This document shows, in pieces, positions 791 through 21,317 of a DNA stretch of 64,000 nucleotides. Both the position numbers and the translations under genes were made by a program. Positions within the stretch are counted from its first letter, which is position 1. Every line of letters begins with the position of its first letter. The notes beneath the pieces were generated by a model. That model was given only the letters and a program-made list of their open reading frames with translations, did not search any database and had not been told where the DNA came from. Origin of the DNA: Hoeflea phototrophica DFL-43 (GTDB taxonomy: Bacteria; Pseudomonadota; Alphaproteobacteria; Rhizobiales; Rhizobiaceae). Where the stretch lies: contig NZ_CM002917.1 of NCBI RefSeq assembly GCF_000154705.2, positions 2,791,659 to 2,855,658 on the forward strand, written 5' to 3'.

Positions 791-1429
791 TCAGTTGACC
801 AGCCTGGCCGCCGCATGCCGGGCATGGTCGGCAACACCGGGATCCTTGGTGATGAGGGCAGCGACGATGGCTCCGTCGATCAACAGCGCCAACTCATGGG
901 TCAGTCCCTCGGGATCGTCCGGGCGGACGTCCCTGGCCAGTTCGCCGATCTTGTCGAGCACGATTTTCTTGTGCTTCATCGTGATCAGACGGATCTTGTC
1001 GTCTTCCTTGTCATGCTCGCCCACAGCGTTGATGAACGGACAGCCATAGAAGTTTTCTTCGCGGAACCAGGACTTCAAGACATTGAAGACATGCAGCACC
1101 TTTTTCTCCGACGGACCGTCAAAGGCGTCTATCTCGTCGGAAAACCATTGCCGCCAGGTGCTGCCTTCGCGCTCAAGCACCGCCTCGATCAGCCCTTCCT
1201 TTGAACCATAAGCCTTGTAGAGCGTCGTTTTGGCGGTGCCTGCTGCCTCCACAATGCTGTCCACACCGGTCGCGTTGATCCCGTGCCGACAGAACAGATC
1301 ACACGCCGCAAGCAGCAGCCGTTCGCGCGCCGACCCCGGATGGCTTGGAATGTTTCGGATTGCCTGGTTCACGATATCAACCACCTTGTTCACAATAGAC
1401 CAATCATACAGACCGTTAGGTTTTTTCAT
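791..1429 (-). CDS. TetR/AcrR family transcriptional regulator
   Basis: A 212-residue one-domain repressor type. An N-terminal helix-turn-helix is readable as the segment with AATGVDSIVEAAG followed by KTTLYKAYGSKEGL, the usual TetR recognition helix. The C-terminal all-helical part is the ligand and dimer domain. An in-frame extension upstream to 1561 exists, but it lacks TetR features and is Cys-rich, so I start at the ATG at 1429. It is divergent from the ABC operon starting at 1688, with a 258-bp shared control region, so it may regulate itself or that operon. The ligand cannot be told. Confidence 0.85.
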   Translation of the reverse strand: MKKPNGLYDWSIVNKVVDIVNQAIRNIPSHPGSARERLLLAACDLFCRHGINATGVDSIVEAAGTAKTTLYKAYGSKEGLIEAVLEREGSTWRQWFSDEIDAFDGPSEKKVLHVFNVLKSWFREENFYGCPFINAVGEHDKEDDKIRLITMKHKKIVLDKIGELARDVRPDDPEGLTHELALLIDGAIVAALITKDPGVADHARHAAARLVN

Positions 1430-1483
1430 ACCCAGTACGCTCCACGGGATCAACGCCGCTCCACATTTTCCTAGGTGAACCCC

Positions 1484-1493
1484 GTGTACACCC
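1484..1493. promoter_or_regulatory. Candidate TetR operator half (GTGTACAC)
   Basis: An 8-bp perfect palindrome GTGTACAC lies at 1484-1491. The 9-mer TGTACACCC (1485-1493) recurs in inverted form as GGGTGTACA at 1649-1657, next to the predicted transcription start of the divergent operon. Paired short palindromes between a TetR gene and a divergent operon would suit a TetR operator. This is inference from sequence symmetry only. Confidence 0.25.
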
Positions 1494-1628
1494 GTCCATT
1501 TTTTTGGCGGGAACATCCCGACAGGCCTGTTATTTCCGCAGCGCACACAGGTAGCCGGCAACTCGATGAATCGGCGGTAGAAGCTCTAAGCATATGTAAT
1601 TTATAACCAATAATGCCATAGATTCAGT

Positions 1629-1645
1629 TTGGCACGGTAGATGCA
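1629..1645 (+). promoter_or_regulatory. Sigma-54 (RpoN) -24/-12 promoter
   Basis: TTGGCACGGTAGATGCA matches the RpoN consensus closely: TTGGCACG at -24, then GC at -12 with exactly ten bases between the invariant GG (1631-1632) and GC (1643-1644). It predicts a start near 1656, about 30 bases before the ABC ATPase start codon at 1688. A sigma-54 activator gene lies in the same locus (8635-10506). High-confidence motif; activity is not shown by the sequence. Confidence 0.85.
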
Positions 1646-1687
1646 TAGGGGTGTACAGAACAGTTTGTTTGAACCCTGGAGCCGTAC

Positions 1688-2533
1688 ATGCCCGCTGCAC
1701 ATCTTTCTGTCGACGGCATTTCCCACACCTACAAGCGGGGACAGGTGCGGGCTTTGGACAATCTGAATTTCCAGGTGGAGCCCGGCGAGGCGCTGGCGCT
1801 GGTCGGCAGATCCGGTTGCGGCAAATCCACCCTGTTGCACATCATGGCCGGCCTGATGACACCGACGTCGGGCAAGACCCTGATCGATGGCCGCACGGTC
1901 TCGGGCCCCTCTCCCAACTGGGTGATGATGTTTCAGAAGCCGTCGCTTTATCCCTGGATGACGGTCGCGCAGAATGTTGCGCTTGGCCTCAAATTCACCG
2001 GACGGACCGCGGAGATTGCAAAGCGCGTTCCCGAAATGCTCGAACTGGTGGAGCTGGCCGATTATGCCGACCGTAATGTTCAGGATCTCTCAGGCGGCCA
2101 GCAGCAGCGGGTAGCCCTCGCCCGCTCACTCGCGCCGAAGCCGGAAGTGCTGTTTCTCGACGAACCCTTCTCGGCCCTCGATGCCTTCACCCGCAACAAC
2201 CTTCAGCGCGACGTCCGCCGCATCGCCAAGGAGCTGGACATCACGCTTGTCCTGGTCACGCACGACCTCTCCGAGGCCATCATCATGGCCGAACGCGCTG
2301 TCGTGCTGAGCGCCAACCCGGGCCAGATCAGTGACATCATCGAGATCGACCTGGACAATCGCGACGATCTGCGCACGCCGGAATATGTGGCGGCACGCAC
2401 CAGGCTGACCAAAGCCTATGAGAAAGCCGCTGGCCTCGATTTCGAAGCCAGGCACGTCAACGCTTCAATGCCCTCATCACATGCCGACAAAAACATGAAA
2501 CCGGCTGCCGCGGACCGCGCGGCTGTCCTCTGA
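1688..2533 (+). CDS. ABC transporter ATP-binding protein, nitrate/sulfonate/taurine type
   Basis: First gene of operon 1. The 281 residues carry Walker A GRSGCGKST (residues 40-48), the ABC signature LSGGQ (134-138) and Walker B ending LFLDEP (155-160), followed by the D-loop Ser-Ala-Leu-Asp. It is the energy-coupling subunit of an SsuB/TauB/NrtD-like importer and should work with the binding protein at 2561 and the permease at 3820. The C-terminal tail after about residue 240 is longer than usual and low in conservation. Substrate class is inferred from the family and the cyanase operon nearby. The sigma-54 promoter at 1629-1645 lies directly upstream. Confidence 0.9.
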   Translation: MPAAHLSVDGISHTYKRGQVRALDNLNFQVEPGEALALVGRSGCGKSTLLHIMAGLMTPTSGKTLIDGRTVSGPSPNWVMMFQKPSLYPWMTVAQNVALGLKFTGRTAEIAKRVPEMLELVELADYADRNVQDLSGGQQQRVALARSLAPKPEVLFLDEPFSALDAFTRNNLQRDVRRIAKELDITLVLVTHDLSEAIIMAERAVVLSANPGQISDIIEIDLDNRDDLRTPEYVAARTRLTKAYEKAAGLDFEARHVNASMPSSHADKNMKPAAADRAAVL

Positions 2534-2560
2534 TCAATGCCAACAGGGAAGGCCAGAACA

Positions 2561-3823
2561 ATGACCGACAATGTGCCAGCAAAATCCGGGTCTCAGGATT
2601 GGGACGACGAGTACTTTTCCACTGATTTCACCCGTCGCCAGACGCTCGACATGTTTGCCGCCGGCGGCCTCATGGCAGCCCTTGGCCCCCTGATCGGCGC
2701 CATGAGTTCGCCCGCCTTCGCATCAACCGACGATGAGGTCGTGCGCATTGGCTATCTACCGATCACCGACGCCACCGCCCTGCTTGTTGCCCACGGCATG
2801 GGCTACTTCGAGGAGGAAGGCCTCAAGGCCGAGCGCCCGACACTGATCCGTGGCTGGTCGCCGCTGGTTGAAGGCTTCGTGGCAGGCAAGTTCAACCTCG
2901 TCCACTTCCTCAAGCCGATCCCGGTCTGGATGCGCTACAACAACAACATCCCGGTCAAACTGATGGCCTGGGCGCACACCAACGGCTCCGGCCTGGTTGT
3001 CGGCGGCCACACGGACATCACCGATTTCAGCCAGCTCGGCGGCAAACAGGTGGCAGTCCCGTTCTGGTACTCGATGCACAACATCGTGCTGCAATATGCG
3101 CTGCGCCAGTCCGGTGTCAAAGCCGTCATCAAGAGCCAGGGCGAGCCGATTGCTGCTGACGAATGCAATCTGCAGATCCTGCCGCCGCCGGAAATGCCGG
3201 CCGCGCTCGCCAGCCGCAAGATCGACGCCTACATCGTCGCCGAGCCCTTCAACGCCATGGGTGAAATCAAGGCGGGGGCACGGATGCTGCGCTTCACCGG
3301 CGACATCTGGAAGAACCATCCCTGCTGCGTGATCTGCATGCACGAACAGGCAACCACCGAAAAACAGGAGTGGACGCAAAAGGTGATGAACGCCGTGGTC
3401 AAGGCGCAGATTTACGCATCGCAAAACAAGGCCGAAGTCGCCCGCATGATGTCCAAGGATGGCGAAGGCTACCTGCCGATGCCCGCAGCCATCGTCGAAC
3501 GGGCCATGACCGACTACGAACAGGACCCGGACTACATCGAAAGCGGTGCAATCAAGCATGCCGCGGAATGGGGCAACGGGCGCATCGACTTCCAGCCCTG
3601 GCCCTACCCGTCGGCAACCAAACTGATTGTCGAGCAGATGAACAACACCCTTGTGGGCGGCGACACCACCTTCCTCAAGGATCTCGACCCGCAATTCGTC
3701 GCCGATGATCTGGTCAATTATGACTATGTCCGCAGGGCACTGGAAAAGTACCCGGAATGGATGAACGACCCTTCGGTCAATGCCGGCGATCCGTTCAACC
3801 GTGACGAGGTGCTGTCTCTGTGA
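2561..3823 (+). CDS. ABC substrate-binding protein, NrtA/CynA-like, Tat signal
   Basis: A 420-residue periplasmic binding protein of the NrtA/SsuA class. A twin-arginine signal is visible (RRQTLDMF at about 25-32, then a hydrophobic stretch ending in AFA), so it is probably exported folded. Family-like segments include PPPEMPAAL and an HPCC motif, both shared with the second binding protein at 10707 (PPPEM, HPCC), so the two are paralogs. I prefer the ATG at 2561, which has AGGGAAGG eight bases upstream, over the ATG at 2537. The ligand is probably a small anion such as nitrate, cyanate, thiocyanate or a sulfonate. Confidence 0.85.
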   Translation: MTDNVPAKSGSQDWDDEYFSTDFTRRQTLDMFAAGGLMAALGPLIGAMSSPAFASTDDEVVRIGYLPITDATALLVAHGMGYFEEEGLKAERPTLIRGWSPLVEGFVAGKFNLVHFLKPIPVWMRYNNNIPVKLMAWAHTNGSGLVVGGHTDITDFSQLGGKQVAVPFWYSMHNIVLQYALRQSGVKAVIKSQGEPIAADECNLQILPPPEMPAALASRKIDAYIVAEPFNAMGEIKAGARMLRFTGDIWKNHPCCVICMHEQATTEKQEWTQKVMNAVVKAQIYASQNKAEVARMMSKDGEGYLPMPAAIVERAMTDYEQDPDYIESGAIKHAAEWGNGRIDFQPWPYPSATKLIVEQMNNTLVGGDTTFLKDLDPQFVADDLVNYDYVRRALEKYPEWMNDPSVNAGDPFNRDEVLSL

Positions 3824-4656
3824 GCGTCGACGCGACCATGGTGCCGATAGAGCTGGAGCAGGCCGGTCAGACTGACCGGTCGGCTCAAATCAAGGCTGCT
3901 CGCAGCCTTGGTTATGCCCTTCTGGGGATGAGCCTTCTGCTCGCCTGCTGGTGGGTTGGCGGGTACATGATCCGCAACAATCCGGCAATGTCGGCCTTTG
4001 CCGACTTCGCACCAGGACCGGCCCTGACGCGGCTTGCCGAAATGGTCGCCTCGGGTGAAGCCTGGGCGATGACGCTGCCAAGCCTGGAGAGGATCATGCA
4101 CGGGATGCTGATCGCCATCGCGCTTGGCGTTCCTGTCGGCATCCTGATCGGCCGCTTCGGTTTCTTACGTGAGATCACCAACATTCCGTTCCAGTTCCTC
4201 AGGATGATCTCGCCGCTTTCCTGGATGCCGATTGCCGTCATGGCTTTTGCCACCTGGGACGGCGCCATCGTCTTCCTGATTGCGGTTGCGGCGGTCTGGC
4301 CGATCCTGTTTTCCACCGCGGCGGGGTTGCGGCGGGTGGAGCCGGACTGGTTCAAGGTCGCCCGAAATCTGGGGGCGCGGCCCTGGCACATGCTGTTCAC
4401 CATCATCCTGCCGGCGATCTCTCAGGACATCCTGACAGGGATCCGCCTGGCGCTCGGAGTGGCCTGGATCGTGCTGGTTCCGGCTGAATATCTCGGCATC
4501 ACTTCGGGCCTCGGCTACGCCATCAACGACGCCCGCGACACGCTCGAATATGACCGGCTGGCAGCCACTGTGGTCATCATCGGGGTCATCGGATTCACAC
4601 TCGATTTCATCTGTCAGCAGGTGATCTCGAAACTCAGTTGGCACCGCAACGATTAG
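3820..4656 (+). CDS. ABC transporter permease, SsuC/NrtB type
   Basis: A 278-residue inner-membrane permease with about six hydrophobic segments. It carries the BPD_transp_1 pattern (ISPLSWMPIAVMAF and, later, the EAA-like region around AARNLGAR-type residues before ILPAISQDILTGIRLALG). The GTG start overlaps the stop of the binding-protein gene in a GTGA junction, so translation is coupled. It pairs with the ATPase at 1688. An alternative ATG lies at 3838. Confidence 0.88.
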   Translation: MSVDATMVPIELEQAGQTDRSAQIKAARSLGYALLGMSLLLACWWVGGYMIRNNPAMSAFADFAPGPALTRLAEMVASGEAWAMTLPSLERIMHGMLIAIALGVPVGILIGRFGFLREITNIPFQFLRMISPLSWMPIAVMAFATWDGAIVFLIAVAAVWPILFSTAAGLRRVEPDWFKVARNLGARPWHMLFTIILPAISQDILTGIRLALGVAWIVLVPAEYLGITSGLGYAINDARDTLEYDRLAATVVIIGVIGFTLDFICQQVISKLSWHRND

Positions 4657-4700
4657 GCGGGCCACCAACCGTGTTCAAACACACAGAGGAGTAAAAAACC

Positions 4701-5237
4701 ATGTCTCAACCTGCAACCGCACTGACCGGCTGCCTTGCACCCATCTCAAAGGATGGTCTCGATGACCTGATTGCGAAGGGCAAGGCCGATCCAAAGGCCG
4801 TCAAGACACTCAAGTGCAAGACCGTGGCCGAAGGGCGCTTTCGCCACGCCAACTACATTCGCAATCTCGAGCCCTACATCGTCGATGAACCGCCTGGCCT
4901 GCTCGGTGACGACACCGCTCCCAATCCGTCGGAAGCCTCGCTCGCAGCCCTTGGCTCCTGTGTCGCTGTCGGCCTGCATGCCAATGCAGTCGCACGCGGC
5001 ATCCAGGTCTTCAAGCTGGAAGTGGAGCTTGAAGGTGATTTGAACATCACCGCTGTCTGGGGCACCGGCGACACCTCGGAAAAGCCCGTCGGCTTCACCG
5101 ATGTGCGCATCAAGGTGGATATGGAAGGCGATTGCCCAAAGGAAGAGATCGACGCGCTGGTCCAGCATGTCATCCAGTGGTCGCCCGTGTTCAACACCTT
5201 CTCGCGCCCCGTCAACATGGTTGCAGAAACGATGTGA
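4701..5237 (+). CDS. OsmC/Ohr family protein
   Basis: A 178-residue OsmC-fold protein. The conserved Cys in the ALGSC motif (Cys87) and a second Cys in GDCPKEE (Cys145) fit the redox pair that OsmC/Ohr thiol peroxidases use on hydroperoxides; some relatives handle persulfides. The strong Shine-Dalgarno AGAGGAG lies upstream of the ATG. Sitting in an operon with a rhodanese and two flavoproteins, it may protect against reactive sulfur or peroxide by-products. That role is inference. Confidence 0.85.
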   Translation: MSQPATALTGCLAPISKDGLDDLIAKGKADPKAVKTLKCKTVAEGRFRHANYIRNLEPYIVDEPPGLLGDDTAPNPSEASLAALGSCVAVGLHANAVARGIQVFKLEVELEGDLNITAVWGTGDTSEKPVGFTDVRIKVDMEGDCPKEEIDALVQHVIQWSPVFNTFSRPVNMVAETM

Positions 5238-5243
5238 TGAGCA

Positions 5244-5277
5244 GGGGCTGCGCCGCTGATCCTGGCGGCGCGGCCCC
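5244..5277 (+). other. Intercistronic GC-rich hairpin
   Basis: GGGGC-TGCGCCGC pairs with GCGGCGCG-GCCCC around a short loop. There is no T-run, so it is not a classical terminator. It is more likely an mRNA-stabilising or processing hairpin between the OsmC gene and the flavoprotein gene. Confidence 0.6.
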
Positions 5278-5329
5278 GCTTCAATGCCAAGCCACCGGCC
5301 CAAACATACCAAGCCAAAGGAGAGTGCAG

Positions 5330-6439
5330 ATGAACATTGCGCCACCCATGACTGCGGTAAATTTCGAAGAGATCGAGCGGATCTCCGGCTCCACGCTTGC
5401 CGGCCTTGTCCGCAAGATCGACGAGGAGCGGATCTACCCCGAGGAGGTCATGCGCGCCTATGGCGAGGCAGGCGCTTACACCAGCCATCTGAGCGGCCCT
5501 GCATCAAGCGTCGATCTGAGCCAGGCGATCCTGTCGATGGCGCGGGCTGCAGAGGAGTGCATGTCGACGGCGTTTTGTGTTTGGTGTCAGGATACGCTCG
5601 GCTGGTACATCGCCTCATCCGACAATGACTATCTCAAGACCCACGTGCTTCCCAAGGTGGCCAAGGGCTCGTCGCTCGGCGGCACCGGCATGTCCAACCC
5701 GATGAAAGCCATCGGCGACATCGAACCGATGAAACTCAAGGGCGTCCGCGTGGATGGCGGCTACAAGGTCAAGGGGATCCTGCCCTGGGTCTCCAATCTT
5801 CTCGAAGACGGCTATTTCGGCACCATGTTTCATGTCGACGTCGACGGCGAGGACAAACCCAAGCGCGTCATGACCATCATTCATGCGGCATGGGAGGGCG
5901 TGAAGCTAAGGCTCGACCACGACTTCGTCGCCATGGGCGGAACCGCCACCTGCAATGTCCAGATGCGCGATGTGTTTGTGCCCGATGAGTTCGTCCTCGC
6001 CGATCCAGCCGACGCGTTTGTGAAGAAGATGCGCCCGGGCTTCGTGCTCATGCAATGCGGCATGGCCGCAGGCATCATCAAGAACTGCATCGAACTGATG
6101 GAGCAGGTCCGAGGCCCCCTGGGCCACGTCAACTGCTTCCTGGAAAAGCAGCCCGAGGACATTCGCGCCGACTATGACGCCTTGTTGGCGGACATCATGA
6201 ACTTGGCCAAAACGCCCTACGACACGTCCAACGCCTACTTCAAGCGGGTGCTTGAAGCGCGATTGAAAGGCGGTGAACTGGCGGTCGAAGCCGCTCATTT
6301 CGCGCAACTTCATTGCGGCGCGCGCGGCTATGTCTCCACCGGCGCGGCGCAGCGGCGGCTGCGCGAAGCCTATTTCGTCGCCATCGTCACGCCGGCCACC
6401 AAGCATCTGCGCAAACTGATTTCAGAATTGGAGGAGTAA
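5330..6439 (+). CDS. Acyl-CoA-dehydrogenase-fold flavoprotein, possibly a monooxygenase
   Basis: A 369-residue protein of the acyl-CoA dehydrogenase superfamily (N-terminal helical, middle beta and C-terminal helical domains recognisable). The usual C-terminal catalytic YEG motif is absent; the equivalent stretch reads REAYFVAIVTPATKHL. That pattern is typical of flavin-dependent monooxygenases of this fold (DszC, SfnC, HpaB-like) rather than true dehydrogenases. The ATG at 5330 has AAAGGAGAG upstream; an open frame back to 5132 overlaps the OsmC gene and is not used. With the reductase at 7419 it could form a two-component oxygenase. The substrate is unknown. Confidence 0.75.
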   Translation: MNIAPPMTAVNFEEIERISGSTLAGLVRKIDEERIYPEEVMRAYGEAGAYTSHLSGPASSVDLSQAILSMARAAEECMSTAFCVWCQDTLGWYIASSDNDYLKTHVLPKVAKGSSLGGTGMSNPMKAIGDIEPMKLKGVRVDGGYKVKGILPWVSNLLEDGYFGTMFHVDVDGEDKPKRVMTIIHAAWEGVKLRLDHDFVAMGGTATCNVQMRDVFVPDEFVLADPADAFVKKMRPGFVLMQCGMAAGIIKNCIELMEQVRGPLGHVNCFLEKQPEDIRADYDALLADIMNLAKTPYDTSNAYFKRVLEARLKGGELAVEAAHFAQLHCGARGYVSTGAAQRRLREAYFVAIVTPATKHLRKLISELEE

Positions 6440-6501
6440 ACCGGCTTCCCGGCAACGATCCGGAAAGCCTCAACACCAACCAACCCCAGAGAGGTCTTGC
6501 C

Positions 6502-7353
6502 ATGAATTCTGCTCTTGTGACACCAGCTGAACTCCAGATGATGATTGATGCAAAGCAGGCAGTGATCATCGACACTCGTGACCCAGAAAGCTTCGCCGCC
6601 GGCCACATCGCCGGAGCGGTCAACATGCATGACATCTTCACCTACCTCGCCACCTCCGATGCCAACGGAATGGGGGAACTGAAAGAGAAATTCGCAGCCG
6701 AATTTGCCGCCGCAGGCCTTGATGGCGCCAAGACCGCCGTCATTTACGAAGCCTCGATGGCCAGCGGGTTTGGCCAGTCCTGCCGCGGCTATTTTCTCCT
6801 GTCCTTCCTGGGCTACCCGAATGTGAAGGTCATGCATGGCGGCTTTGCCGCATGGCTTGCGGCCGGAATGCCTGTTACCACCGACACAAGCGCACCTCAG
6901 CCTGGTGGCTTCGAAATCGATCCCGCGGCCGCATCCATCATGATGGATGCGGAGGATATGAAAGCGGCAATGGCCGATGAGAAAGCCGTCATCCTCGACG
7001 TGCGTGACATCGACGAATGGATCGCGGAATCCTCATCTCCCTATGGCAAGGATTTTTGTCCGCGCAAGGGACGGATACCGGGCGCGGTCTGGATCGAATG
7101 GTACCGCATGATGAAACCCACCGCCGAAGGGCCGATGATGAAGTCGAAAGCCGAAGTGCTGGCCGAATGCGCCACCGTGGGCATCACCGCGGAGACACCG
7201 GTGAAGCTTTATTGCTTCAAGGGCGCGCGGGCTTCCAACACCTTCCTCGCCCTCAAGGAGGCCGGCATCAAGGATGTCGCGATCTATTTCGGGTCCTGGA
7301 ACGAATGGTCCCGCGATCCCTCCTTGCCAATCGAGGAAGGCCTGCCGTACTAA
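6502..7353 (+). CDS. Two-domain rhodanese (sulfurtransferase)
   Basis: A 283-residue tandem rhodanese of thiosulfate/mercaptopyruvate sulfurtransferase type. The C-terminal domain (about 140-283) has the active-site loop CFKGAR with Cys238. In the N-terminal domain (about 5-125) the equivalent loop has Glu83 in place of Cys (IYEASMASG), so that half is structural. It moves sulfane sulfur to a thiophilic acceptor such as cyanide or a protein thiol. The ATG at 6502 follows GAGAGG. Its presence with cyanase points to cyanide/thiocyanate chemistry, but this is inferred. Confidence 0.88.
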   Translation: MNSALVTPAELQMMIDAKQAVIIDTRDPESFAAGHIAGAVNMHDIFTYLATSDANGMGELKEKFAAEFAAAGLDGAKTAVIYEASMASGFGQSCRGYFLLSFLGYPNVKVMHGGFAAWLAAGMPVTTDTSAPQPGGFEIDPAAASIMMDAEDMKAAMADEKAVILDVRDIDEWIAESSSPYGKDFCPRKGRIPGAVWIEWYRMMKPTAEGPMMKSKAEVLAECATVGITAETPVKLYCFKGARASNTFLALKEAGIKDVAIYFGSWNEWSRDPSLPIEEGLPY

Positions 7354-7372
7354 CCAGAATCAACCAAGCCAC

Positions 7373-7397
7373 GCGCGGGGGACGACAGCCCCCGCGC
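7373..7397 (+). other. Intercistronic hairpin
   Basis: A perfect 9-bp stem, GCGCGGGGG and CCCCCGCGC, around the 7-base loop ACGACAG, lies between the rhodanese and oxidoreductase genes. No T-tract follows, so a stabilising or processing hairpin is more likely than a terminator. Confidence 0.65.
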
Positions 7398-7418
7398 CAG
7401 ACAGGATAACGGACACTC

Positions 7419-8594
7419 ATGCCTTCTTCATTTGTCATCATCGGTGCGGGCCAGGCAGGCATCAAGGCTGCCGAGACGCTGCGCGCCAAGGGCTTTGATG
7501 GCACCATTACCCTGATCGGCGCCGAACATTGGCATCCCTACCAACGCCCGCCGCTGTCAAAAGCCTATCTGAAGGGTGAAATGAGTGAGGACCGGCTGCT
7601 GCTCAAGGCGCCCGACTGGATCAAGGGCGCGGGCATCGACACCCATCTGGGAAAGCGTGCGACCCGTCTTGATCCCGCCACCCGCACCATCACTCTCGAT
7701 GATGGCACCGAAGTTCCCTATGACAAGGTTCTCATTGCAACAGGCACTCACGCACGCTGGCTGCATCTGGACAGCGCAGACTTGCCAGGCGTTGAGACAC
7801 TGCGCGGGATCGATGACACAAGGCGCATCGGCGCCCGGCTCAAACAAGCGCACAATGTCGCGATCATCGGCGGCGGTTTCATCGGCATGGAGGTAGCGTC
7901 CGCCGTGCGTACCATGGGCAAGACGGTCAGCGTTGTCGAGGCGCAGGAGCGCATTCTAGCCCGGGTCGTCGCCCCGGAGGTGTCGGCCTATCTCGAAACC
8001 TTGCATTCAGAGCACGGCGTAAACCTGAGAACCGCCGTGGGCGTGGACGCAATTGTCGGCAACGGCCATGTGCAGTCAGTCGAATTGAGCGACGGCAGCG
8101 CGGTAGATGCCGATATCGTCCTCATCGCCGCCGGAGCCGAACCTACGATCGACCTCGCCTTCCATGCAGGTCTCGATCTGGCCCGTGGCATCATTGTCGA
8201 TAATGCCTGCAGAACCAGCGTGCCCCATATTTATGCGGCGGGTGACTGCACCGTGTTTCACTCCGCACGCTACGGCCGCCTGATCGGGCTCGAAAGCGTG
8301 CAGAACGCCTGTGACCAGGCAAAAGCCGCAGCAGCCTCCATGCTCGGCGAGCCTGTGGCCTATGATCCGGTTCCGTGGTTCTGGTCTGACCAATACGACA
8401 CCAAGCTGCAAATTGCCGGACTTTCCGCGGGCTATGACCGGATCGAAACCGTCGGCTCCATCCCGGAAGGCCGCTTCTCGATCCGATACTATGCGGGCGG
8501 AACTCTGCTGGCCGTCGATTCCATCAACGATCCGCGCGCCCACATGATGGCGCGGCGCGAGATTGCCGCCCAGCCTCCGGCGCTTGCCGCCTGA
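7419..8594 (+). CDS. NAD(P)H-dependent FAD oxidoreductase, ferredoxin/rubredoxin reductase type
   Basis: A 391-residue two-dinucleotide-fold flavoprotein. FAD motif GAGQAG at 9-14, substrate-side motif PYQRPPLSK near 40, NAD motif GGGFIG at 151-156, and the second FAD motif YAAGDCT near 270. The C-terminal part (WFWSDQYDTKLQIAG) is the reductase C-terminal domain. Relatives pass electrons from NADH to ferredoxins of oxygenases. It closes operon 1 and may feed the flavoprotein at 5330; no ferredoxin gene is adjacent. Confidence 0.88.
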   Translation: MPSSFVIIGAGQAGIKAAETLRAKGFDGTITLIGAEHWHPYQRPPLSKAYLKGEMSEDRLLLKAPDWIKGAGIDTHLGKRATRLDPATRTITLDDGTEVPYDKVLIATGTHARWLHLDSADLPGVETLRGIDDTRRIGARLKQAHNVAIIGGGFIGMEVASAVRTMGKTVSVVEAQERILARVVAPEVSAYLETLHSEHGVNLRTAVGVDAIVGNGHVQSVELSDGSAVDADIVLIAAGAEPTIDLAFHAGLDLARGIIVDNACRTSVPHIYAAGDCTVFHSARYGRLIGLESVQNACDQAKAAAASMLGEPVAYDPVPWFWSDQYDTKLQIAGLSAGYDRIETVGSIPEGRFSIRYYAGGTLLAVDSINDPRAHMMARREIAAQPPALAA

Positions 8595-8634
8595 GCCATC
8601 TCCGCCCTCGCGGTTGAGACCCCCATACAGACGC

Positions 8635-10506
8635 TTACGAATTGCCTTCGATCTGCTCATCGGCAATGCCGAATTTCTTGATCCTCGAATAGAGCGTGGT
8701 TGGCCTGATGCCCAGCAGGTTGGCAGCACCATCATCGCCCGAGACCTTTCCATTGGTCATCTTGAGGCAGGCGATGATGTTCTTGATCTGCAGGTCGCGC
8801 ATCTGCTCCTCGGTCATCACCTCTGTGTCCAGCTCCGAGAGGCGCTTGCGGCCAAGCTTGTGGAATTCAAGCACCAGCTTGTCGCCGCGTGAGAGGATCG
8901 CACCCCGTTCAATGACATTTTGCAGCTCCCTGACATTGCCGGGCCAGTGATAGGCCTGCAACTCACGGATATTGGCCTTCGTCACCGTCGGCTTGGGCAA
9001 GTTGAGGCGTTCGCAGGCGAGCTTGAGAAAATACTGCGTCAGTTCCGGAATGTCCGCGACCCGCTCGCGCAAGGGGCGGCATTCAATCGGAAACACATTG
9101 AGGAAGAAGTACAGATCCTCGCGGAAACTGCCCTGCTTGACGCAGAGCTCGAGATCCTTGGTCGAGGCGGCAATCACCCGCACATTGATCTTGTTTGTCC
9201 GTGATTCTCCCAGACGCTCGAAGGTCTTGTCGCGCAGCACCTTCAGGATCGTGCCCTGCAGATCGAGCGGAATTTCAGAGACTTCGTCGAGAAACAGCGT
9301 CCCGCCATTGGCAATCTCGATCTTGCCGGTCCTGTCATGAAGCGCGCCGGCAAACGCGCCACGCACATGCCCGAACAGCTCGCTTTCAAAACTGGCAGGC
9401 GAAATCCCCGCACAATTGACCCGGATGATCGGACGTTTGGCCCGCGAGCTTGCCTTGTGGGTGGCAGAGGCGACCAGAGCCTTGCCGGTGCCACCTTCCC
9501 CGGTGATCAGCACATTGCTCTCGGTTGCCGCCACAAGATTGATCTGTGCCAGCGTACGCTGGATCGCCGGTGAACCGCCAACCAGATCATAATGCGAACG
9601 CACCTGCTGGATCTCTTCCTGCAGATATTCGTTTTCCTGCTCAAGCCGTTCCCGCAACGCTTCGATCTGCTCCATCGCCTGATGCAGCTTGCGTTCATTT
9701 TCGCGCCGGTCGGTGACATCGCGAAACACCACCACCGCACCGGCCAGAACCTGCTGGTCGTAAATCGGCGTCGATGTGTATTCGACTTCGATCGGGCGCC
9801 CATCCTTGTGCCAGAAGACTTCGTCCTCGATCCTGGCAACCTTCTCGTTGCGAAAGCTGTGATAGATCGGACACTCCCGTGAAGGATAGACCGTGCCATC
9901 GGGATGGTGATGGTGTATCATCGCATGGATGTCCTGGCCAAGCAGGTCCTCTGCCGTCCACCCGAGAATGCTCTGCGCCGCTCGGTTGACGAAGGTGGTC
10001 TTGCCTTCGAGATTGATGCCGTAGATCCCCTCACCCGCAGCGTCCAGAATGAGTTGGTTCTCGCTTTCCATCTCGCGAAAGAAATCCCGCGCGCGGTTCC
10101 ATTCCATCAGGCCCTTGTTGTGCAAATCCGTTGTCGTGACCTGTTGGGTGCGGGCGTGGAAGCCAGCCAGGTCGATGATCTGGATGAGCAGATGGCGCCG
10201 GTTGCGGCTGCGGATCAGCTTGCTGTGCAGCTCCGCCTGGATCGCCGTCCCCGATCTCGCAGTCAGCGTGATGTCGCGGGTCCAGCTTTCTCCGTAATGA
10301 TCCACCGCTTCGGTAAAAACGATCAATTTGGCAAGCTCGCTGCCCAGCACATCGGCGAAGGCGCTGCCGGGCAAATCATCCTCTTCCAGAAGCCGCGATG
10401 CATGCCCGTTTGCGGCATCGATGACCCCGCTGTCGGTGTCGACGAGCAAGGTCGGCAGTGCCGTCAGTTCTATGGTTTTGGACAGGGCTTCGAGTGACAG
10501 ATCCAT
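8635..10506 (-). CDS. Sigma-54-dependent activator (PAS-PAS-AAA+-Fis HTH)
   Basis: A 623-residue enhancer-binding protein. An N-terminal PAS-like domain (about 10-120) and a second PAS (about 145-265) are followed by a coiled coil (265-305), an AAA+ domain (about 307-540) and a Fis-type helix-turn-helix (about 570-615). Walker A reads GEGGTGKA (336-343; normally GKE), the sigma-54 loop reads GAFAGA (383-388; normally GAFTGA), Walker B reads GGTLFLDE (401-408), and the arginine-finger stretch FREDLYFFL (461-469) lacks the second Arg. I start at the ATG at 10506; an in-frame ATG at 10539 is possible. It probably controls both flanking operons. Confidence 0.92.
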   Translation of the reverse strand: MDLSLEALSKTIELTALPTLLVDTDSGVIDAANGHASRLLEEDDLPGSAFADVLGSELAKLIVFTEAVDHYGESWTRDITLTARSGTAIQAELHSKLIRSRNRRHLLIQIIDLAGFHARTQQVTTTDLHNKGLMEWNRARDFFREMESENQLILDAAGEGIYGINLEGKTTFVNRAAQSILGWTAEDLLGQDIHAMIHHHHPDGTVYPSRECPIYHSFRNEKVARIEDEVFWHKDGRPIEVEYTSTPIYDQQVLAGAVVVFRDVTDRRENERKLHQAMEQIEALRERLEQENEYLQEEIQQVRSHYDLVGGSPAIQRTLAQINLVAATESNVLITGEGGTGKALVASATHKASSRAKRPIIRVNCAGISPASFESELFGHVRGAFAGALHDRTGKIEIANGGTLFLDEVSEIPLDLQGTILKVLRDKTFERLGESRTNKINVRVIAASTKDLELCVKQGSFREDLYFFLNVFPIECRPLRERVADIPELTQYFLKLACERLNLPKPTVTKANIRELQAYHWPGNVRELQNVIERGAILSRGDKLVLEFHKLGRKRLSELDTEVMTEEQMRDLQIKNIIACLKMTNGKVSGDDGAANLLGIRPTTLYSRIKKFGIADEQIEGNS

Positions 10507-10541
10507 GCCGCAAAGAATGCAACAGCTTTCCACTATCATCA

Positions 10542-10561
10542 ACGAAATTTCGTAATTTACG
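10542..10561. promoter_or_regulatory. Candidate enhancer (UAS) palindromes
   Basis: Two overlapping perfect palindromes: ACGAAATTTCGT (10542-10553) and CGTAA-T-TTACG (10551-10561). They lie at the 5' end of the activator gene, about 90 bases before the candidate -24 element of the divergent operon, a usual distance for an activator binding site. A relative, GTAATTTAT, occurs at 1596-1604 upstream of the first sigma-54 promoter. Binding by the neighbouring activator is inference. Confidence 0.4.
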
Positions 10562-10628
10562 ATATTTCATAAATATTTGACTTTCCTAATTCGTTTTTTT
10601 CTTCATTTTTTCAATATTTTACCGAATC

Positions 10629-10641
10629 TCGGAGTTTCCGA
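10629..10641. promoter_or_regulatory. Short palindrome TCGGA-GTT-TCCGA
   Basis: A 5-3-5 perfect inverted repeat just upstream of the candidate sigma-54 promoter, in an AT-rich region. Part of it can also pair with AAAACTCC downstream (10652-10659). It may be a regulator site; no known consensus is matched. Confidence 0.3.
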
Positions 10642-10646
10642 TTTTT

Positions 10647-10664
10647 TCGGGAAAACTCCTGCGG
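10647..10664 (+). promoter_or_regulatory. Candidate sigma-54 promoter for the cyanate operon
   Basis: GG at 10649-10650 and GC at 10661-10662 are separated by exactly ten bases, as RpoN promoters require. The flanks fit poorly (TCGGGAAAA instead of TTGGCACG), so the site is weaker than the one at 1629. It lies about 45 bases before the ATG at 10707. Just downstream is a 7-6-7 inverted repeat, GACCAAA and TTTGGTC (10664-10683). Confidence 0.45.
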
Positions 10665-10706
10665 ACCAAATTAACCTTTGGTCATCGAACACGTCAGGAG
10701 ATCAAG

Positions 10707-12086
10707 ATGACCATGAAAAGCCTGGGCAACCCTTTTTCGTCGAAGACCGATCTGCGCCATGGTGCGGATTGCGGCTGCAAATCATGCGCGTCGGGCGAAT
10801 TTCGTGCGGATGACGCTTCCCCGCAATCATCAGAAGCAATGCTCGAGCGCGCTGTTGAAAGCGCAATCGTTCGCTCGGTCTTCGGACACTCCGACATTGG
10901 TCGCCGCTCATTCATGGGCATGGTTGGCGGAGCAACCGCTGCCGCGGCTCTTGCTTCAGTGTTCCCGATGGACAAGGCGAAAGCAGCCATCCTCGACAAT
11001 CTGGGGACACCGGAGAAGACCGACCTCAACATAGGCTTCGTTCCGATCACCTGCGCCACACCAATCATCATGGCTCAGCCATTGGGCTTTTATGAGCGGT
11101 ATGGCCTCAACGCCCAGGTGATCAAGACCGCCGGCTGGGCCGTTGCCCGCGACAAGTCGCTCGCCGGCGAGTATGACGCCAGCCACATGCTGACCCCGAT
11201 GCCGCTGGCCATGACGCTCGGCGCCGGATCGACAGCGACCCCCTACATCATGCCCGCCGTGGAAAACATCAACGGCCAGGCCATCGTCTTGTCCAACGAG
11301 CACAAGGACAAGCGCGATCCCAAGCAGTGGAAGGGCTTCACCTTCGGCGTGCCGTTCGAATATTCGATGCACAACTTCCTGCTGCGTTACTATGTGGCCG
11401 AATTCGGCCTGGATCCCGACGTCGACATCCAGATCCGCGTCGTTCCGCCCCCGGAAATGGTCGCCAACCTTCGCGCAGGCAACCTCGATGGCTACCTCTC
11501 GCCCGACCCGTTCAACCAGCGTGCGGTCTGGGAAGGCATTGGCTTCATCCACATCCTCACCAAGGAAATCTGGGAAGGCCATCCGTGCTGCGCCTTTGCG
11601 GCTCCCCTCTCCTTCGCCGAACAACTTCCCAACACCTACGGGGCGCTGTTGAAGTCGATCATCGATGCGACCCAGTACGCCTCCAATCCGGACAACCGGA
11701 AAGAGATTTCGGAAGCCATCGCGCCGACCAACTATCTCAACCAGCCGGTTCCGGTGATCGAGCAGGTCCTCACGGGCACCTATGCCGACGGACTTGGCGA
11801 AGTGAAGCAGGTTCCCGACCGGATCGACTTCGATCCGTTCCCCTGGCATTCGATGGGCGTCTGGATCCTCACCCAGATGAAGCGCTGGGGCTATATCGAG
11901 GGCGACATCGACTACAAGGCCGTGGCCGAGCAGGTCTACCTTGCTGCCGATGCGCGCAAGATCATGACCGATCTCGGGTACGACGCGCCCACCGAGACCT
12001 ACAAGAGCCATGTCATCATGGGCAAGACCTTCGATCCGGAGACCCCTGAGGACTACGTCTCCAGCTTCGCTATCGGCAAGGGCTGA
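10707..12086 (+). CDS. cynA: ABC substrate-binding protein, nitrate/cyanate (NrtA/CynA) family
   Basis: A 459-residue binding protein. The N-terminal region has a Cys-rich stretch (CGCKSCASG), then a twin-arginine-like signal (GRRSFMGMVGGAT, near 72-84). The mature part has the family segments PPPEM and HPCC. The ATG at 10707 is preceded by AGGAG. Followed by permease, ATPase and cyanase in the order of cyanobacterial cynABDS, it is likely the cyanate (or nitrate) receptor. The unusually long, Cys-containing leader before the signal is odd. Confidence 0.75.
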   Translation: MTMKSLGNPFSSKTDLRHGADCGCKSCASGEFRADDASPQSSEAMLERAVESAIVRSVFGHSDIGRRSFMGMVGGATAAAALASVFPMDKAKAAILDNLGTPEKTDLNIGFVPITCATPIIMAQPLGFYERYGLNAQVIKTAGWAVARDKSLAGEYDASHMLTPMPLAMTLGAGSTATPYIMPAVENINGQAIVLSNEHKDKRDPKQWKGFTFGVPFEYSMHNFLLRYYVAEFGLDPDVDIQIRVVPPPEMVANLRAGNLDGYLSPDPFNQRAVWEGIGFIHILTKEIWEGHPCCAFAAPLSFAEQLPNTYGALLKSIIDATQYASNPDNRKEISEAIAPTNYLNQPVPVIEQVLTGTYADGLGEVKQVPDRIDFDPFPWHSMGVWILTQMKRWGYIEGDIDYKAVAEQVYLAADARKIMTDLGYDAPTETYKSHVIMGKTFDPETPEDYVSSFAIGKG

Positions 12087-12089
12087 TCA

Positions 12090-12923
12090 ATGGCAACTCT
12101 CTCGCTCAATCAGCGCGCGGCCATCCTCTCGCTTGTTCTGCTTTTTGCGGGATTGCTGGTCTGGGAGGCAGCGATTCCGGCCCAGAAGGCGGCGGGTGAG
12201 TTGACGGAGTATGAGCGCCTGACAGGCGGCGGCGCGCCAAAAGCCGGCGTGCCGCCGCCCAGCCAGGTGTTCCAGAAGGCATGGAACGAGCTGAGCAACC
12301 CGTTCTACGATGCCGGCCCCAACGACAAGGGGATCGGTATCCAGATCGGATATTCGATCTACCGGGTCTTGAGTGGCTACGCCCTGGCAGCCCTTGTTGC
12401 CATTCCGCTCGGCTTCCTCATCGGCATGTCGACGGTGGCCTACAAGGCGCTCAATCCCTTCATCCAGGTGCTACGGCCGATCTCGCCGCTGGCCTGGATG
12501 CCACTGGCGCTGTTCATCATCCAGGACAGCGAACGCAGTGCGATCTTCGTGATCTTCATCTGTTCGATCTGGCCGATGCTGATCAACACAGCCTTTGGTG
12601 TCGCAGGTGTCAGGAAGGACTGGGTCAATGTTGCAAAGACCCATGAACTGGGCGCATTGCGGACAGCTTTCATGGTGATCCTGCCGGCCGCAGCCCCAAC
12701 CATCGTGACCGGCATGCGGATTTCCATCGGGATTGCCTGGCTGGTGATCGTCGCCGCCGAGATGCTCGTGGGCGGCACCGGCATTGGCTACTACGTTTGG
12801 AACGAATGGAACAATCTCGACCTCACCTCGGTGATCTTCTCGATCCTCATGATCGGGGTCGTCGGCATGGCCCTCGACGCAATGTTTGGCATTCTGCAGC
12901 GCCTCGTCGCCTACAGTGAATAG
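12090..12923 (+). CDS. cynB: ABC transporter permease, nitrate/cyanate type
   Basis: A 277-residue NrtB/CynB-type permease with about six membrane segments. Family signatures include QVLRPISPLAWMPLALF and the EAA-type loop before ILPAAAPTIVTGMRISIG. It starts 3 bases after the binding-protein stop. A loop with TEYERLTGGGAPKAG lies in the periplasmic segment after the first helix. Paralog of the permease at 3820. Confidence 0.78.
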   Translation: MATLSLNQRAAILSLVLLFAGLLVWEAAIPAQKAAGELTEYERLTGGGAPKAGVPPPSQVFQKAWNELSNPFYDAGPNDKGIGIQIGYSIYRVLSGYALAALVAIPLGFLIGMSTVAYKALNPFIQVLRPISPLAWMPLALFIIQDSERSAIFVIFICSIWPMLINTAFGVAGVRKDWVNVAKTHELGALRTAFMVILPAAAPTIVTGMRISIGIAWLVIVAAEMLVGGTGIGYYVWNEWNNLDLTSVIFSILMIGVVGMALDAMFGILQRLVAYSE

Positions 12924-12932
12924 GAGCAGCAA

Positions 12933-13817
12933 GTGAGCAAAAGCTATCTCAGTGTCGAAGGCCTCACCCAGCGTTACGCCGATGGAAGCGGCGGCGAGAT
13001 GACCGTGTTCGAAGGCGCCAATTTCACTGTCGAAAAGGGCGAGTTCGTCGTCATTCTGGGTCATTCCGGCTGTGGCAAGTCCACCATCATGAACATTCTG
13101 GCCGGGCTCGCGCAGGCCACCGAAGGTGTTGTGATCATGGATGGCAAGGAAGTTTCCGGGCCGAGTCTTGATCGCGGCGTGGTGTTTCAGAACTACTCGC
13201 TGCTGCCATGGCTTTCGACGATCAAGAACGTCACCTTCGCAGTCGCCGCCCGCCATCCCGACTGGTCGCGTGAACAGGTCCTGGCCCATTCCAAGAAACA
13301 TCTGGAAATGGTTGGCCTCAATGAAAGCGTGTTTCATCGCAAGCCCAGCCAGTTGTCGGGTGGCATGCGCCAGCGCGTCTCCATCGCCCGCGCCTTTTCG
13401 ATCAGCCCCAAGCTGCTTCTGCTGGATGAACCCTTCGGCGCGCTCGACGCGCTCACACGCGGCACCATTCAGGATGAGTTGCTCAAGGTATGGGCGGGAA
13501 CCGAACAGACCGTGTTCATGATCACCCATGACATCGACGAGGCGATCCTGCTCGCTGACCGCATCCTGCTGATGACAAACGGGCCTTTTGCCCGCGTGGC
13601 TGAATCGGTCGAGATCACGATCCCGCGTCCGCGCAACCGAACCGAGATCGTTGAGCATCCGAACTACTATGCGATCCGCAATCATCTGGTTCAGTTCCTC
13701 GGCGTCCGCTCTAAGGAACTGGCCGGAACCACCGGCTCGGAAGACAACAGACCCGAAACCGTGCGTATCGACCTCACCAAGGCGGGCAAGACAAAGACTG
13801 CCAAGATCGCCGTTTGA
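12933..13817 (+). CDS. cynD: ABC transporter ATP-binding protein, nitrate/cyanate type
   Basis: A 294-residue ATPase. Walker A GHSGCGKST (near 47-55), signature LSGGMRQRVSIA, Walker B LLLLDEPFGALD and an H-loop THD are present. The start is GTG with AGGAGC upstream. Gene order (binding protein, permease, ATPase, cyanase) is that of the cyanate transporter operon. The nitrate transporter ATPases are nearly identical in motif, so substrate rests on context. Confidence 0.78.
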   Translation: MSKSYLSVEGLTQRYADGSGGEMTVFEGANFTVEKGEFVVILGHSGCGKSTIMNILAGLAQATEGVVIMDGKEVSGPSLDRGVVFQNYSLLPWLSTIKNVTFAVAARHPDWSREQVLAHSKKHLEMVGLNESVFHRKPSQLSGGMRQRVSIARAFSISPKLLLLDEPFGALDALTRGTIQDELLKVWAGTEQTVFMITHDIDEAILLADRILLMTNGPFARVAESVEITIPRPRNRTEIVEHPNYYAIRNHLVQFLGVRSKELAGTTGSEDNRPETVRIDLTKAGKTKTAKIAV

Positions 13818-13840
13818 CCAAACCAACAGGAGGCATTCCC

Positions 13841-14293
13841 ATGACCAAAATGATGACAAAAGAAGATGTGACCGAAATGATCCTGTCGGCAAAGCGCACC
13901 GCAGGTCTCACCTGGGAAGGCATTGCCGAACAGATCGGAATGTCGCCGGTCTGGACCCATTCCGCCGCCATGGGCATGAACGCAATGCCCAAGGACAAGG
14001 CCGATGCGCTGGCATCCGCAATGGGCCTGCCGCAGGAAGCCTCGCTGGTCCTGCAGGAATCCCCAACCAAGATCTGGGAGCAGTCAGTTCCAACAGACCC
14101 CTGCATTTACCGCCTCTACGAGATCGTCGGCGTATATGGCCCGACCATCAAGGCGCTCATTCATGAGAAGTTCGGCGACGGCATCATGTCGGCCATCGAT
14201 TTCGACATGCAGATCACCCGCGTCGAGAACCCCAAAGGCGACCGCGTCAAAATCGAAATGTCGGGCAAGTATCTGGGCTATAACTCCTGGTGA
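13841..14293 (+). CDS. cynS: Cyanate hydratase (cyanase)
   Basis: A 150-residue cyanase. It converts cyanate plus bicarbonate to carbamate and CO2, then ammonia. The N-terminal helix-turn-helix-like helical domain is followed by the catalytic domain. The active-site residues fit E. coli CynS Arg96, Glu99 and Ser122 as Arg91 and Glu94 (in YRLYE) and Ser117 (in GIMSAIDF). The conserved KALIHEKFGDGI block is intact. The start has a perfect AGGAGG seven bases upstream. Its place after a dedicated ABC importer gives imported or internally generated cyanate as nitrogen source. Confidence 0.97.
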   Translation: MTKMMTKEDVTEMILSAKRTAGLTWEGIAEQIGMSPVWTHSAAMGMNAMPKDKADALASAMGLPQEASLVLQESPTKIWEQSVPTDPCIYRLYEIVGVYGPTIKALIHEKFGDGIMSAIDFDMQITRVENPKGDRVKIEMSGKYLGYNSW

Positions 14294-14330
14294 TGTCGGG
14301 CACGGCCATTCCGGATAATTGGACAGGTTC

Positions 14331-14795
14331 ATGACACGGCCACCCATCCCGCCCTTTACCGAAGAGACGGCCCGGCAGAAAGTCCGGGCCGCAGAAGATG
14401 GCTGGAACGGCCGCAATCCTGCAACGGTTGCACAGGCATACACGCCGGACAGCGTCTGGCGTAACCGCTCGGAATTCCTCAAGGGCCGGGCCGAAATCGA
14501 AGCCTTCCTTACACGCAAGTGGGAGAAGGAGCGCGAGTACCGTCTGATCAAGGAGCTTTGGGCCTTCACGGGCAACCGTATTGCCGTGCGTTTTGCCTAT
14601 GAGTGGCATGATCACGAGGGCAACTGGTTCCGCTCCTACGGCAACGAGAACTGGGAGTTCGATGAGGGCGGCTACATGTCAGCCCGCCACGCCAGCATCA
14701 ATGATCTTCCGATCGACGAGAGCGAACGCAAATTCCTCTGGCCTCAGGGCCGACGCCCGGATGACCATCCCGAATTGTCCGATCTGGGATTCTAG
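14331..14795 (+). CDS. NTF2-like (DUF1348-type) protein
   Basis: A 154-residue protein resembling the DUF1348/SnoaL-like NTF2 fold: [14 protein letters not shown], then [18 protein letters not shown] and, near the end, [18 protein letters not shown]. Such small cone-shaped barrels bind or convert small hydrophobic ligands; the role of this subfamily is unknown. It starts 37 bases after cynS on the same strand and is probably the last gene of the cyanate operon. I use the ATG at 14331 rather than the TTG at 14319. Confidence 0.8.
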
Positions 14796-18120: not shown

Positions 18121-18132
18121 GGAGTTGGTCCC

Positions 18133-18963: not shown

Positions 18964-18975
18964 GGGTCTATCTCC

Positions 18976-19845: not shown

Positions 19846-19922
19846 GACGCAAATCCTCTGTGGCCGGGCACACTGGCCCGTTTGTCGCCGGCTTTACGGG
19901 AACCTTACAGACAGTAAGCGAG

Positions 19923-19953
19923 CCGGAAGGCGGCGCACTGCGTCGCCTTCCGG
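19923..19953 (-). other. Hairpin downstream of smoE
   Basis: A perfect 10-bp stem (CCGGAAGGCG with CGCCTTCCGG) with an 11-base loop lies 16 bases after the smoE stop. There is no T-run. Such hairpins after binding-protein genes usually protect the 5' message or reduce read-through, giving more receptor than permease. Confidence 0.65.
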
Positions 19954-19968
19954 TCCCGGGAGGAAGGC

Positions 19969-21270: not shown

Positions 21271-21317
21271 CCTAATCCTCCCTAAACTGGATGTTAGGAG
21301 GCAACGGTAACCGCAAA

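Follow-up and report, generated by a model that had tools for sequence, protein, structure and literature searches.

Which compound would a bacterium take up and degrade with a gene set that joins two paralogous ABC importers and a cyanase to a rhodanese, an OsmC-family protein and two flavoproteins? This question is raised by a locus in a 64,000-nucleotide stretch of the Hoeflea phototrophica DFL-43 genome (G000:C1:2791659-2855658 of 4.47 Mb), which is referred to as the window. Here, operon 1 (plus strand, 1688-8594) encodes an ATPase, the periplasmic receptor SBP1, a permease, an OsmC-family protein, a flavoprotein with the acyl-CoA dehydrogenase (ACAD) fold, a rhodanese and a ferredoxin-reductase-type (FdR) flavoprotein, in this order. 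Operon 2 (plus strand, 10707-14795) encodes the receptor SBP2, a permease, an ATPase, the cyanase CynS and a DUF1348 protein. Between the operons, on the minus strand, lies the gene for a sigma-54-dependent activator, which converges on operon 1 and diverges from operon 2. An earlier note, made from the letters of this DNA, had described two operons flanking one activator gene, and all genes that it named were indeed found where it had placed them; however, it had overlooked a TetR gene divergent from operon 1 and the DUF1348 gene terminating operon 2. Judged from residues and gene company, operon 1 very probably produces cyanate. We regard thiocyanate (SCN-) as its somewhat probable substrate, and the locus as a whole may well be an O2-dependent pathway that scavenges nitrogen, and probably also sulfur, from thiocyanate via cyanate.

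Co-conservation of operon 1 with cynS

Relatives of the locus were collected by a genome scan with the ACAD-fold protein, and the best 80 of at least 532 relatives were considered. Counts refer to the 50 loci with at least 20 kb of sequence (full-flank loci), the 30 shorter ones being left out. OsmC accompanies the ACAD-fold protein in all 50 loci, the rhodanese in 46 and cynS in 42; cynS is also visible in 15 of the 30 shorter loci. The cyanase gene shares its strand with the ACAD gene in 38 full-flank loci, and in 18 it lies at most 2.5 kb downstream. At least one case of linked cynS occurs in 18 of 22 genus-or-higher labels, Bradyrhizobium contributing 15 of the 50 loci. The other parts sought were importer 1 (26 loci), SBP2 (21), the FdR-type reductase (22), a rubredoxin-FAD reductase fusion (2), a DsbA-fold isomerase (10) and the sigma-54 activator (11). 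In six loci assigned to Pseudothioclava, Celeribacter, Pseudopelagicola, Thioclava and Thalassovita (L033, L034, L035, L038, L039 and L041), importer 1, OsmC, ACAD, rhodanese, cynS and FdR form a single row, and an SBP2-type receptor is absent from the locus; L036, L037 and L040 are single-row loci without rhodanese. Importer 1 stands beside cynS without CynABD in L033-L041 and in Marinobacter L006.

A second sample comprised 299 genomes drawn evenly over the phylum and not chosen by the cassette. A match with E < 1e-100, a cut chosen post hoc from the gap between 5.9e-102 and 6.0e-53, was taken as a cassette ACAD; 13 genomes carried it and 46 carried cynS. The latter was present in 11 of the 13 cassette-ACAD genomes as compared to 35 of the 286 others (Fisher p = 2e-8, or 1e-7 when the window's own genome is excluded). 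Both genes lay within about 10 kb of each other in 8 of the 13 cassette genomes (7 of 12 without the own genome). Relaxing the cut to E <= 1e-45 gave 18 genomes, 13 of them with cynS; five of the 18 had only the sister form of the ACAD (see below), and two of these five carry cynS elsewhere. A class-level sample contained two genomes among 289 at E <= 1e-90, both with cynS, namely the window's own genome and G012, both of which already belong to the phylum sample. Since 35 of the 46 cynS genomes have no cassette ACAD, cyanase usually stands without the cassette. The earlier note had set a genome search for co-occurrence of operon 1 with cynS beforehand as the test that could overturn its proposal, and the proposal withstood it in both the full-flank and the phylum sample.

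An ACAD tree was calculated with FastTree; it has long branches, omits loci below 12 kb and is weighted heavily by a Bradyrhizobium-type clade of 24 rows. On this tree, cynS is present in the locus in 65 of the 85 rows of the focal clade versus 0 of 9 rows of a sister clade, which argues that the cynS association is specific to the focal clade; some sister-clade genomes carry cynS elsewhere. Parsimony requires 15 changes for cynS presence and 16 for importer type, both counts being inflated by truncated loci. That is, the importers look interchangeable, because their type changes so often on the tree. In addition, an ACAD search of annotated plasmids yielded seven focal-clade loci (L003-L009), on plasmids of a Rhodobacteraceae strain, Pseudosulfitobacter, Methylocystis, Marinobacter, Caballeronia, Acetobacter and Moraxella, which suggests transfer of the cassette between genera. 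Three of the seven contain cynS, those of Marinobacter shengliensis, Acetobacter ascendens and Caballeronia (the last found by BLAST, the plasmid being unannotated), and a CynA/NrtA-type importer adjoins the ACAD gene of Moraxella osloensis.

Enzymes, importers and a proposed route to cyanate

Family matches confirmed all four operon 1 enzymes that the earlier note had listed. The ACAD-fold flavoprotein (5330-6439, plus strand), a proposed oxygenase, belongs to the ACAD sequence family (PF02771 3e-6; profile match to short-chain acyl-CoA dehydrogenase (SCAD) structures, E 1e-22). The claim that it lacks the dehydrogenase base holds: in the profile alignment to SCAD, the column of the catalytic Glu is occupied by Thr, and Glu is found there in 0 of 99 aligned focal-clade members (L078 has Asp, and L022 has Glu one column before). 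Phe fills the helix-G column of all 107 aligned sequences; from a hand alignment to the enzyme's motif, we take this column to be the position of the base in isovaleryl-CoA dehydrogenase. A fatty-acid type acyl-CoA dehydrogenase was rejected because the catalytic base is absent. Group D flavin monooxygenases of the DszC/HpaB/SfnB type have the ACAD fold without this base, a C-terminal Acyl-CoA_dh_2 domain and a two-component reductase; the said domain (PF08028) was matched in 1 of 39 ACAD members. These 39 members match only distant NCBIfam models and have no family name of their own, the weak matches being to 3-sulfinopropanoyl-CoA desulfinase (23 members), HsaA (10) and SfnB (3). The window protein also gave a weak profile match (E 6e-6) to structure entries of Rv3094c, which presumably oxidises a thioamide sulfur.

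In the OsmC-family protein (4701-5237, plus strand; PF02566 7.5e-18), Cys87 is invariant in 95 of 95 aligned relatives, and the presumed resolving-Cys position, Ser161, is Ser in all 95; we take this position to be the resolving site by comparison with the OsmC/Ohr motif. Of the peroxidatic and resolving cysteines that an OsmC/Ohr peroxidase carries at the usual places, only the first is therefore found. The usual peroxidase role is weakened by Ser161, though Cys11 (83 of 95 relatives) and Cys39 (85 of 95) leave room for an unusual resolving Cys. The rhodanese (6502-7353, plus strand; PF00581 in two stretches, 3.5e-37) has the two domains of a rhodanese/mercaptopyruvate sulfurtransferase with the active Cys in the second, and its loop YCFKGARAS, which includes Cys238, is identical in 78 of 78 aligned sequences. 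Both the conserved rhodanese and the cysteine of OsmC speak for a predicted role of operon 1 in handling sulfur. The FdR protein (7419-8594, plus strand; PF07992 1e-67, PF14759 2.5e-22) is an NAD(P)H:ferredoxin-reductase-type FAD protein and the proposed electron donor. As a separate observation, a gene for a DsbA-fold '2-hydroxychromene-2-carboxylate isomerase', perhaps a thiol or glutathione partner, often adjoins the rhodanese gene (L004, L044, L045, L057, L060, L064, L072, L079-L081, L085, L088, L093 and L096).

Importer 1 consists of an ATPase (1688-2533, PF00005 3.2e-36), the receptor SBP1 (2561-3823, PF13379 5.2e-41), an NMT1_2 protein that is distantly SsuA/NrtA-like, and a permease (3820-4656, PF00528 4.6e-23), all on the plus strand. 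On the same strand, operon 2 encodes SBP2, which is of the CynA/NrtA type (10707-12086, PF13379 7.1e-87; NrtA/CmpA-type structures with E 4e-46 or better), a CynB-type permease (12090-12923, PF00528 3.7e-22), a CynD/NrtD-type ATPase (12933-13817, TIGR01184 310.6 bits, cut-off 291.8) and the cyanase (13841-14293, TIGR00673 and PRK02866 above cut-off, PF02560 1.2e-35). Family matches and gene order thus bear out the view that cynS stands behind a NrtA/CynA-type importer. Likewise, the paralogy of both importers was borne out, with identities of 28% for the receptors and 35% each for permeases and ATPases in local alignments, and both receptors contain the PPPEM and HPCC motifs pointed out before. 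All aligned receptors of at least 35% identity keep the Cys-Cys pair of HPCC, which corresponds to Cys255-Cys256 in SBP1 (38 of 38 in one family, 42 of 42 in the other). Cyanase residues R91, E94 and S117, which we take to be catalytic, are kept in 62 of 62 aligned sequences. The last gene of operon 2 (14319-14795, plus strand; PF07080 1.1e-67) encodes a SnoaL/NTF2-like DUF1348 protein, an occasional member of cyanase operons that also occurs in L060 and L076. Further downstream (14856-22470), the translations indicate what seems a separate polyol/sugar locus with a mannitol-dehydrogenase-like protein, a short-chain dehydrogenase/reductase (SDR), an ABC importer and a LacI-type regulator.

How could these parts work together? 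Because cynS is co-conserved, cyanate is the expected product. Three features suggest a sulfur side: the rhodanese, the cysteine of OsmC, and the fact that SBP1 and ACAD are related to a cassette of the cyanobacterial plasmid pANL. Thiocyanate would be the simplest substrate, since it supplies cyanate plus sulfur and fits receptors of the nitrate/cyanate/sulfonate class. In the proposed route, importer 1 would carry SCN- into the cytoplasm, and importer 2, of the CynABD type, would carry cyanate, or perhaps both anions in relatives that have importer 2 alone. The ACAD-fold flavoprotein, supplied with electrons by the FdR protein, would oxidise the sulfur of SCN- with O2, e.g. to a hypothiocyanite-like species. 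Cys87 of OsmC may then accept the sulfur as a persulfide, thereby freeing cyanate, and the rhodanese could pass the sulfane sulfur onward. Finally, cyanase would convert cyanate with bicarbonate to CO2 and ammonia. Transcription of operon 1 would depend on sigma-54, presumably under nitrogen limitation, and be gated by the TetR protein. The substrate, the use of O2, the electron flow, the persulfide relay and the nitrogen control in this scheme are all inferred from residues and gene company.

Potential -24/-12 sites were scored with our own weighted consensus (maximum 23.2) against 60 mononucleotide shuffles per promoter. Upstream of operon 1, the element TGGCACGGTAGATGCA (1630-1645, plus strand) is near-consensus, scoring 22 of 23.2, which is reached by 0 of 60 shuffles. 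No significant -24/-12 site was detected upstream of operon 2, where the best score of 16.5 of 23.2 is matched by 40% of shuffles. Thus, of the -24/-12 promoters that both operons had been suggested to share, only the one before operon 1 could be substantiated. The broader idea of a joint action of operon 1 and cyanase on some cyano or sulfur-cyano compound gains from their co-conservation; sigma-54 control of operon 2 is unsupported in this genome. Significant elements (p <=0.05) precede 45 of 59 OsmC-first, 13 of 38 importer-1-first and 26 of 51 SBP2 promoters, related loci being counted separately, with Bradyrhizobium over-represented and gene starts uncurated. The activator itself (8635-10506, minus strand; PF00158 5.8e-60) contains a PAS domain (PF00989 4.8e-19) and is CynF-like by position. 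The TetR-family regulator encoded upstream (791-1561, minus strand; PF00440 1.3e-12, scanned as 791-1483) belongs to a protein family that recurs in 45 of 87 annotated loci. In the 20 positions listed, its members precede the ACAD gene by about 5 kb, those of L003 and L005 being annotated as TetR/AcrR. In 7 of 20 genome loci, BLAST matched the window protein at 42-59% identity.

Weighing the substrate and rival explanations

Independent support for thiocyanate, albeit correlational, comes from a groundwater consortium that degraded thiocyanate only with air, was inhibited by ammonium and contained few recognised degraders (PMC6440457). Among its 16S rRNA types were a Thioclava-like operational taxonomic unit (OTU) within 12.8% Rhodobacteraceae, Xanthobacter (5.4%) and Martelella (4.0%) (PMC6440457), and the cassette together with cynS is found in Thioclava (L039), Xanthobacter (L070, L079, L081, L085 and L093) and Martelella (L069).

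Several observations weigh against the thiocyanate pathway. The consortium match is at the genus level of 16S, and the need of air fits any aerobic route; the carriers found include neither of the largest members, an unclassified Phyllobacteriaceae OTU (27.8%) and Novosphingobium (12.5%), and about 4% of the consortium were Sphingomonadaceae of genera already linked to thiocyanate (PMC6440457). A search with a Beijerinckiaceae relative, aimed at Methylobacterium, gave no named reported thiocyanate user; it covered the 120 best proteins, the majority of them without an organism name. As for the cyanase, the gene is not present in 8 of the 50 full-flank loci, nor in four of the seven focal plasmid loci (Rhodobacteraceae SC52, Pseudosulfitobacter, Methylocystis and Moraxella osloensis), and among the 13 cassette genomes of the phylum sample it is absent in two and on another contig in three. 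The rhodanese is missing in 4 of 50 full-flank loci and in plasmid loci L006-L009, and in 26 of the 50 no reductase of either type looked for can be seen. Since Cys11 and Cys39 of OsmC are common, another cysteine could be the resolving one. Finally, no significant -24/-12 element was detected in the nine single-row Rhodobacterales loci L033-L041, and nitrogen control is therefore not general.

How do other explanations fare with these data? That unrelated operons became neighbours by chance is exceedingly improbable: the activator gene does separate them, a clear -24/-12 element is confined to operon 1 here and 35 of 46 cynS genomes do without a cassette ACAD, but the linkage is kept in 42 of the 50 relatives and in 8 of the 13 phylum-sample cassette genomes, often in one row, which contradicts chance adjacency. 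Operon 1 might also protect against pseudohalides, e.g. by removing carbamoylated or thiocyanated thiols, rather than serve assimilation. OsmC proteins are generally stress proteins, the adjoining TetR regulator is of a type common in toxicant response, and the single-row Rhodobacterales loci have no clear sigma-54 element. However, an ABC importer of its own and the near-perfect sigma-54 element in the window and in most OsmC-first operons point to scavenging, and the Ser at the presumed resolving position of all 95 OsmC proteins disfavours the usual peroxidase cycle, leaving protection improbable.

More weight, though still as an unlikely alternative, is due to the idea that the same logic applies to another substrate, that is an organic thiocyanate, an isothiocyanate or a small S-C-N compound cut oxidatively to cyanate and a sulfur species. 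The co-conservation of cynS and sulfur genes says more about the products than about the substrate, the score of SBP1 is that of a remote member of the SsuA receptor family (93.1 bits versus a cut-off of 163.5), and the weak ACAD matches are partly to organosulfur enzymes (the desulfinase and SfnB). An enzyme for the organic remainder is nevertheless lacking among the recurrent neighbours listed, and importer 1 is replaced in many relatives by CynA/NrtA-type importers, a class that carries small inorganic anions. Alternatively, the ACAD-fold protein could be the cyanide monooxygenase that has been proposed, although not demonstrated (PMC11049912), converting cyanide to cyanate with the rhodanese as a side arm of cyanide detoxification. 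Its product would suit cynS, but HCN requires no ABC importer, which nonetheless shares the row in many relatives, the rhodanese would compete for cyanide, and cyanide assimilation by Pseudomonas pseudoalcaligenes is, according to the same source, independent of cynS (PMC11049912). We consider this option a poor bet, on a par with protection.

Comparison with known cyanate and thiocyanate systems

Use of thiocyanate as nitrogen source has long been reported for heterotrophs such as Klebsiella, Sphingomonas, Ralstonia, Methylobacterium and Arthrobacter (PMC5328954). In the accounts considered here, the enzymes named are of two kinds, thiocyanate hydrolase and thiocyanate dehydrogenase, and both belong to sulfur oxidisers or autotrophs. 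In line with a gap of this kind, the metatranscriptome of a thiocyanate-fed system is described as containing cyanase transcripts, some reads for thiocyanate hydrolase and none for the dehydrogenase (PMC6172326). The cassette, present in Bradyrhizobium, Xanthobacter, Roseibium, Celeribacter, Thioclava and others, provides a testable gene set for this gap in heterotrophs. With about even chances, it represents a third enzymatic thiocyanate route, in which an O2- and flavin-dependent ACAD-fold oxygenase with OsmC as sulfur acceptor would serve nitrogen scavenging in heterotrophs, carried by a partly plasmid-borne cassette across alpha-, beta- and gammaproteobacteria, and whose sister form may serve sulfur scavenging. 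Confirmation would account for the ability of some common bacteria of soil and sea to live on thiocyanate. The gene set also offers a marker for surveys of the environment and of waste water from mines and coke plants, and possibly a chemistry new to the ACAD and OsmC folds. No description of this operon was found in the open-licence literature, subscription papers being outside the coverage.

The proposal resembles the thiocyanate dehydrogenase route of Thioalkalivibrio, in which SCN- is likewise converted to cyanate and sulfur prior to the action of cyanase (PMC5328954). Thiocyanate dehydrogenase, however, is a copper protein (PMC8061750) that was purified from the periplasm together with a cytochrome c (PMC9456337), whereas the window encodes a flavoprotein-type enzyme together with importers, presumed to act in the cytoplasm. 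Thiocyanate hydrolase, encoded by scnABC, likewise frees the nitrogen of SCN-, but yields carbonyl sulfide (COS) rather than cyanate. In the genome studied here, the sole match to PF02979 lies far from the window and was read by inspection as a nitrile hydratase alpha subunit. As it adjoins a frame read as the beta subunit, a thiocyanate hydrolase elsewhere in the genome was dismissed. This alpha/beta-like pair is located at G000:C1 about 1626458 (L135 1450-2786), and the genome may therefore handle other cyano compounds.

The sister ACAD clade offers a second comparison. An AhpD-family protein is the neighbour in seven of its rows (L111 and L113-L118), a SCO4226-like protein on pANL, and neither in L112; an SBP1-type receptor is present in 8 of 9 rows, and 4 of 8 aligned ACADs have Glu in the SCAD base column. 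By annotation, the AhpD-ACAD-ABC row occurs on plasmids of Variovorax, Agrobacterium, Deinococcus and Roseomonas, and the sister cassette (L111, L113-L118 and L131-L134; L002 11301-15760) is seen in several phyla including Deinococcota. The ACAD of the AhpD-ACAD-ABC cassette is related to that of the window, and in the genomes sampled its receptor shares 49-51% identity with SBP1-type seeds, but the cassette has an AhpD/CMD protein instead of OsmC and no cynS in the locus. The substrate of the sister cassette is possibly a sulfur compound. Plasmid pANL of Synechococcus elongatus PCC 7942 carries a corresponding single row, whose ACAD (31% identity), receptor (46%), permease (49%) and ATPase (38%) match those of the window, with a SCO4226-like (DUF4242) protein in place of OsmC and without rhodanese or cynS; a cynS family match lies elsewhere in this species, which served as control genome. 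Laudenbach and Grossman reportedly described in 1991 a Synechococcus cysR mutant without thiocyanate use as sulfur source, a point that is not used as evidence here. pANL encodes many sulfur-related genes, and its srpI is induced by sulfur starvation (PMC8049743).

The closest relative of operon 2 is found in P. pseudoalcaligenes CECT5344, where cynF encodes a sigma-54 regulator that is divergent from cynABDS and required for cyanate use (PMC6627978). Induction by cyanate and repression by ammonium count among the marks of this cluster. Window positions 8635-14293 show the same arrangement, that is a divergent sigma-54 activator gene followed by an ABC cyanate importer and cynS in one row, but operon 2, unlike cynFABDS, lacks a clear sigma-54 promoter upstream of cynA. 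OsmC, the ACAD-fold protein, the rhodanese, the reductase and the second importer do not appear in the description of that cluster considered here (PMC6627978). Thus, operon 2 and the activator follow a layout already known from cynFABDS, and operon 1 is the new part.

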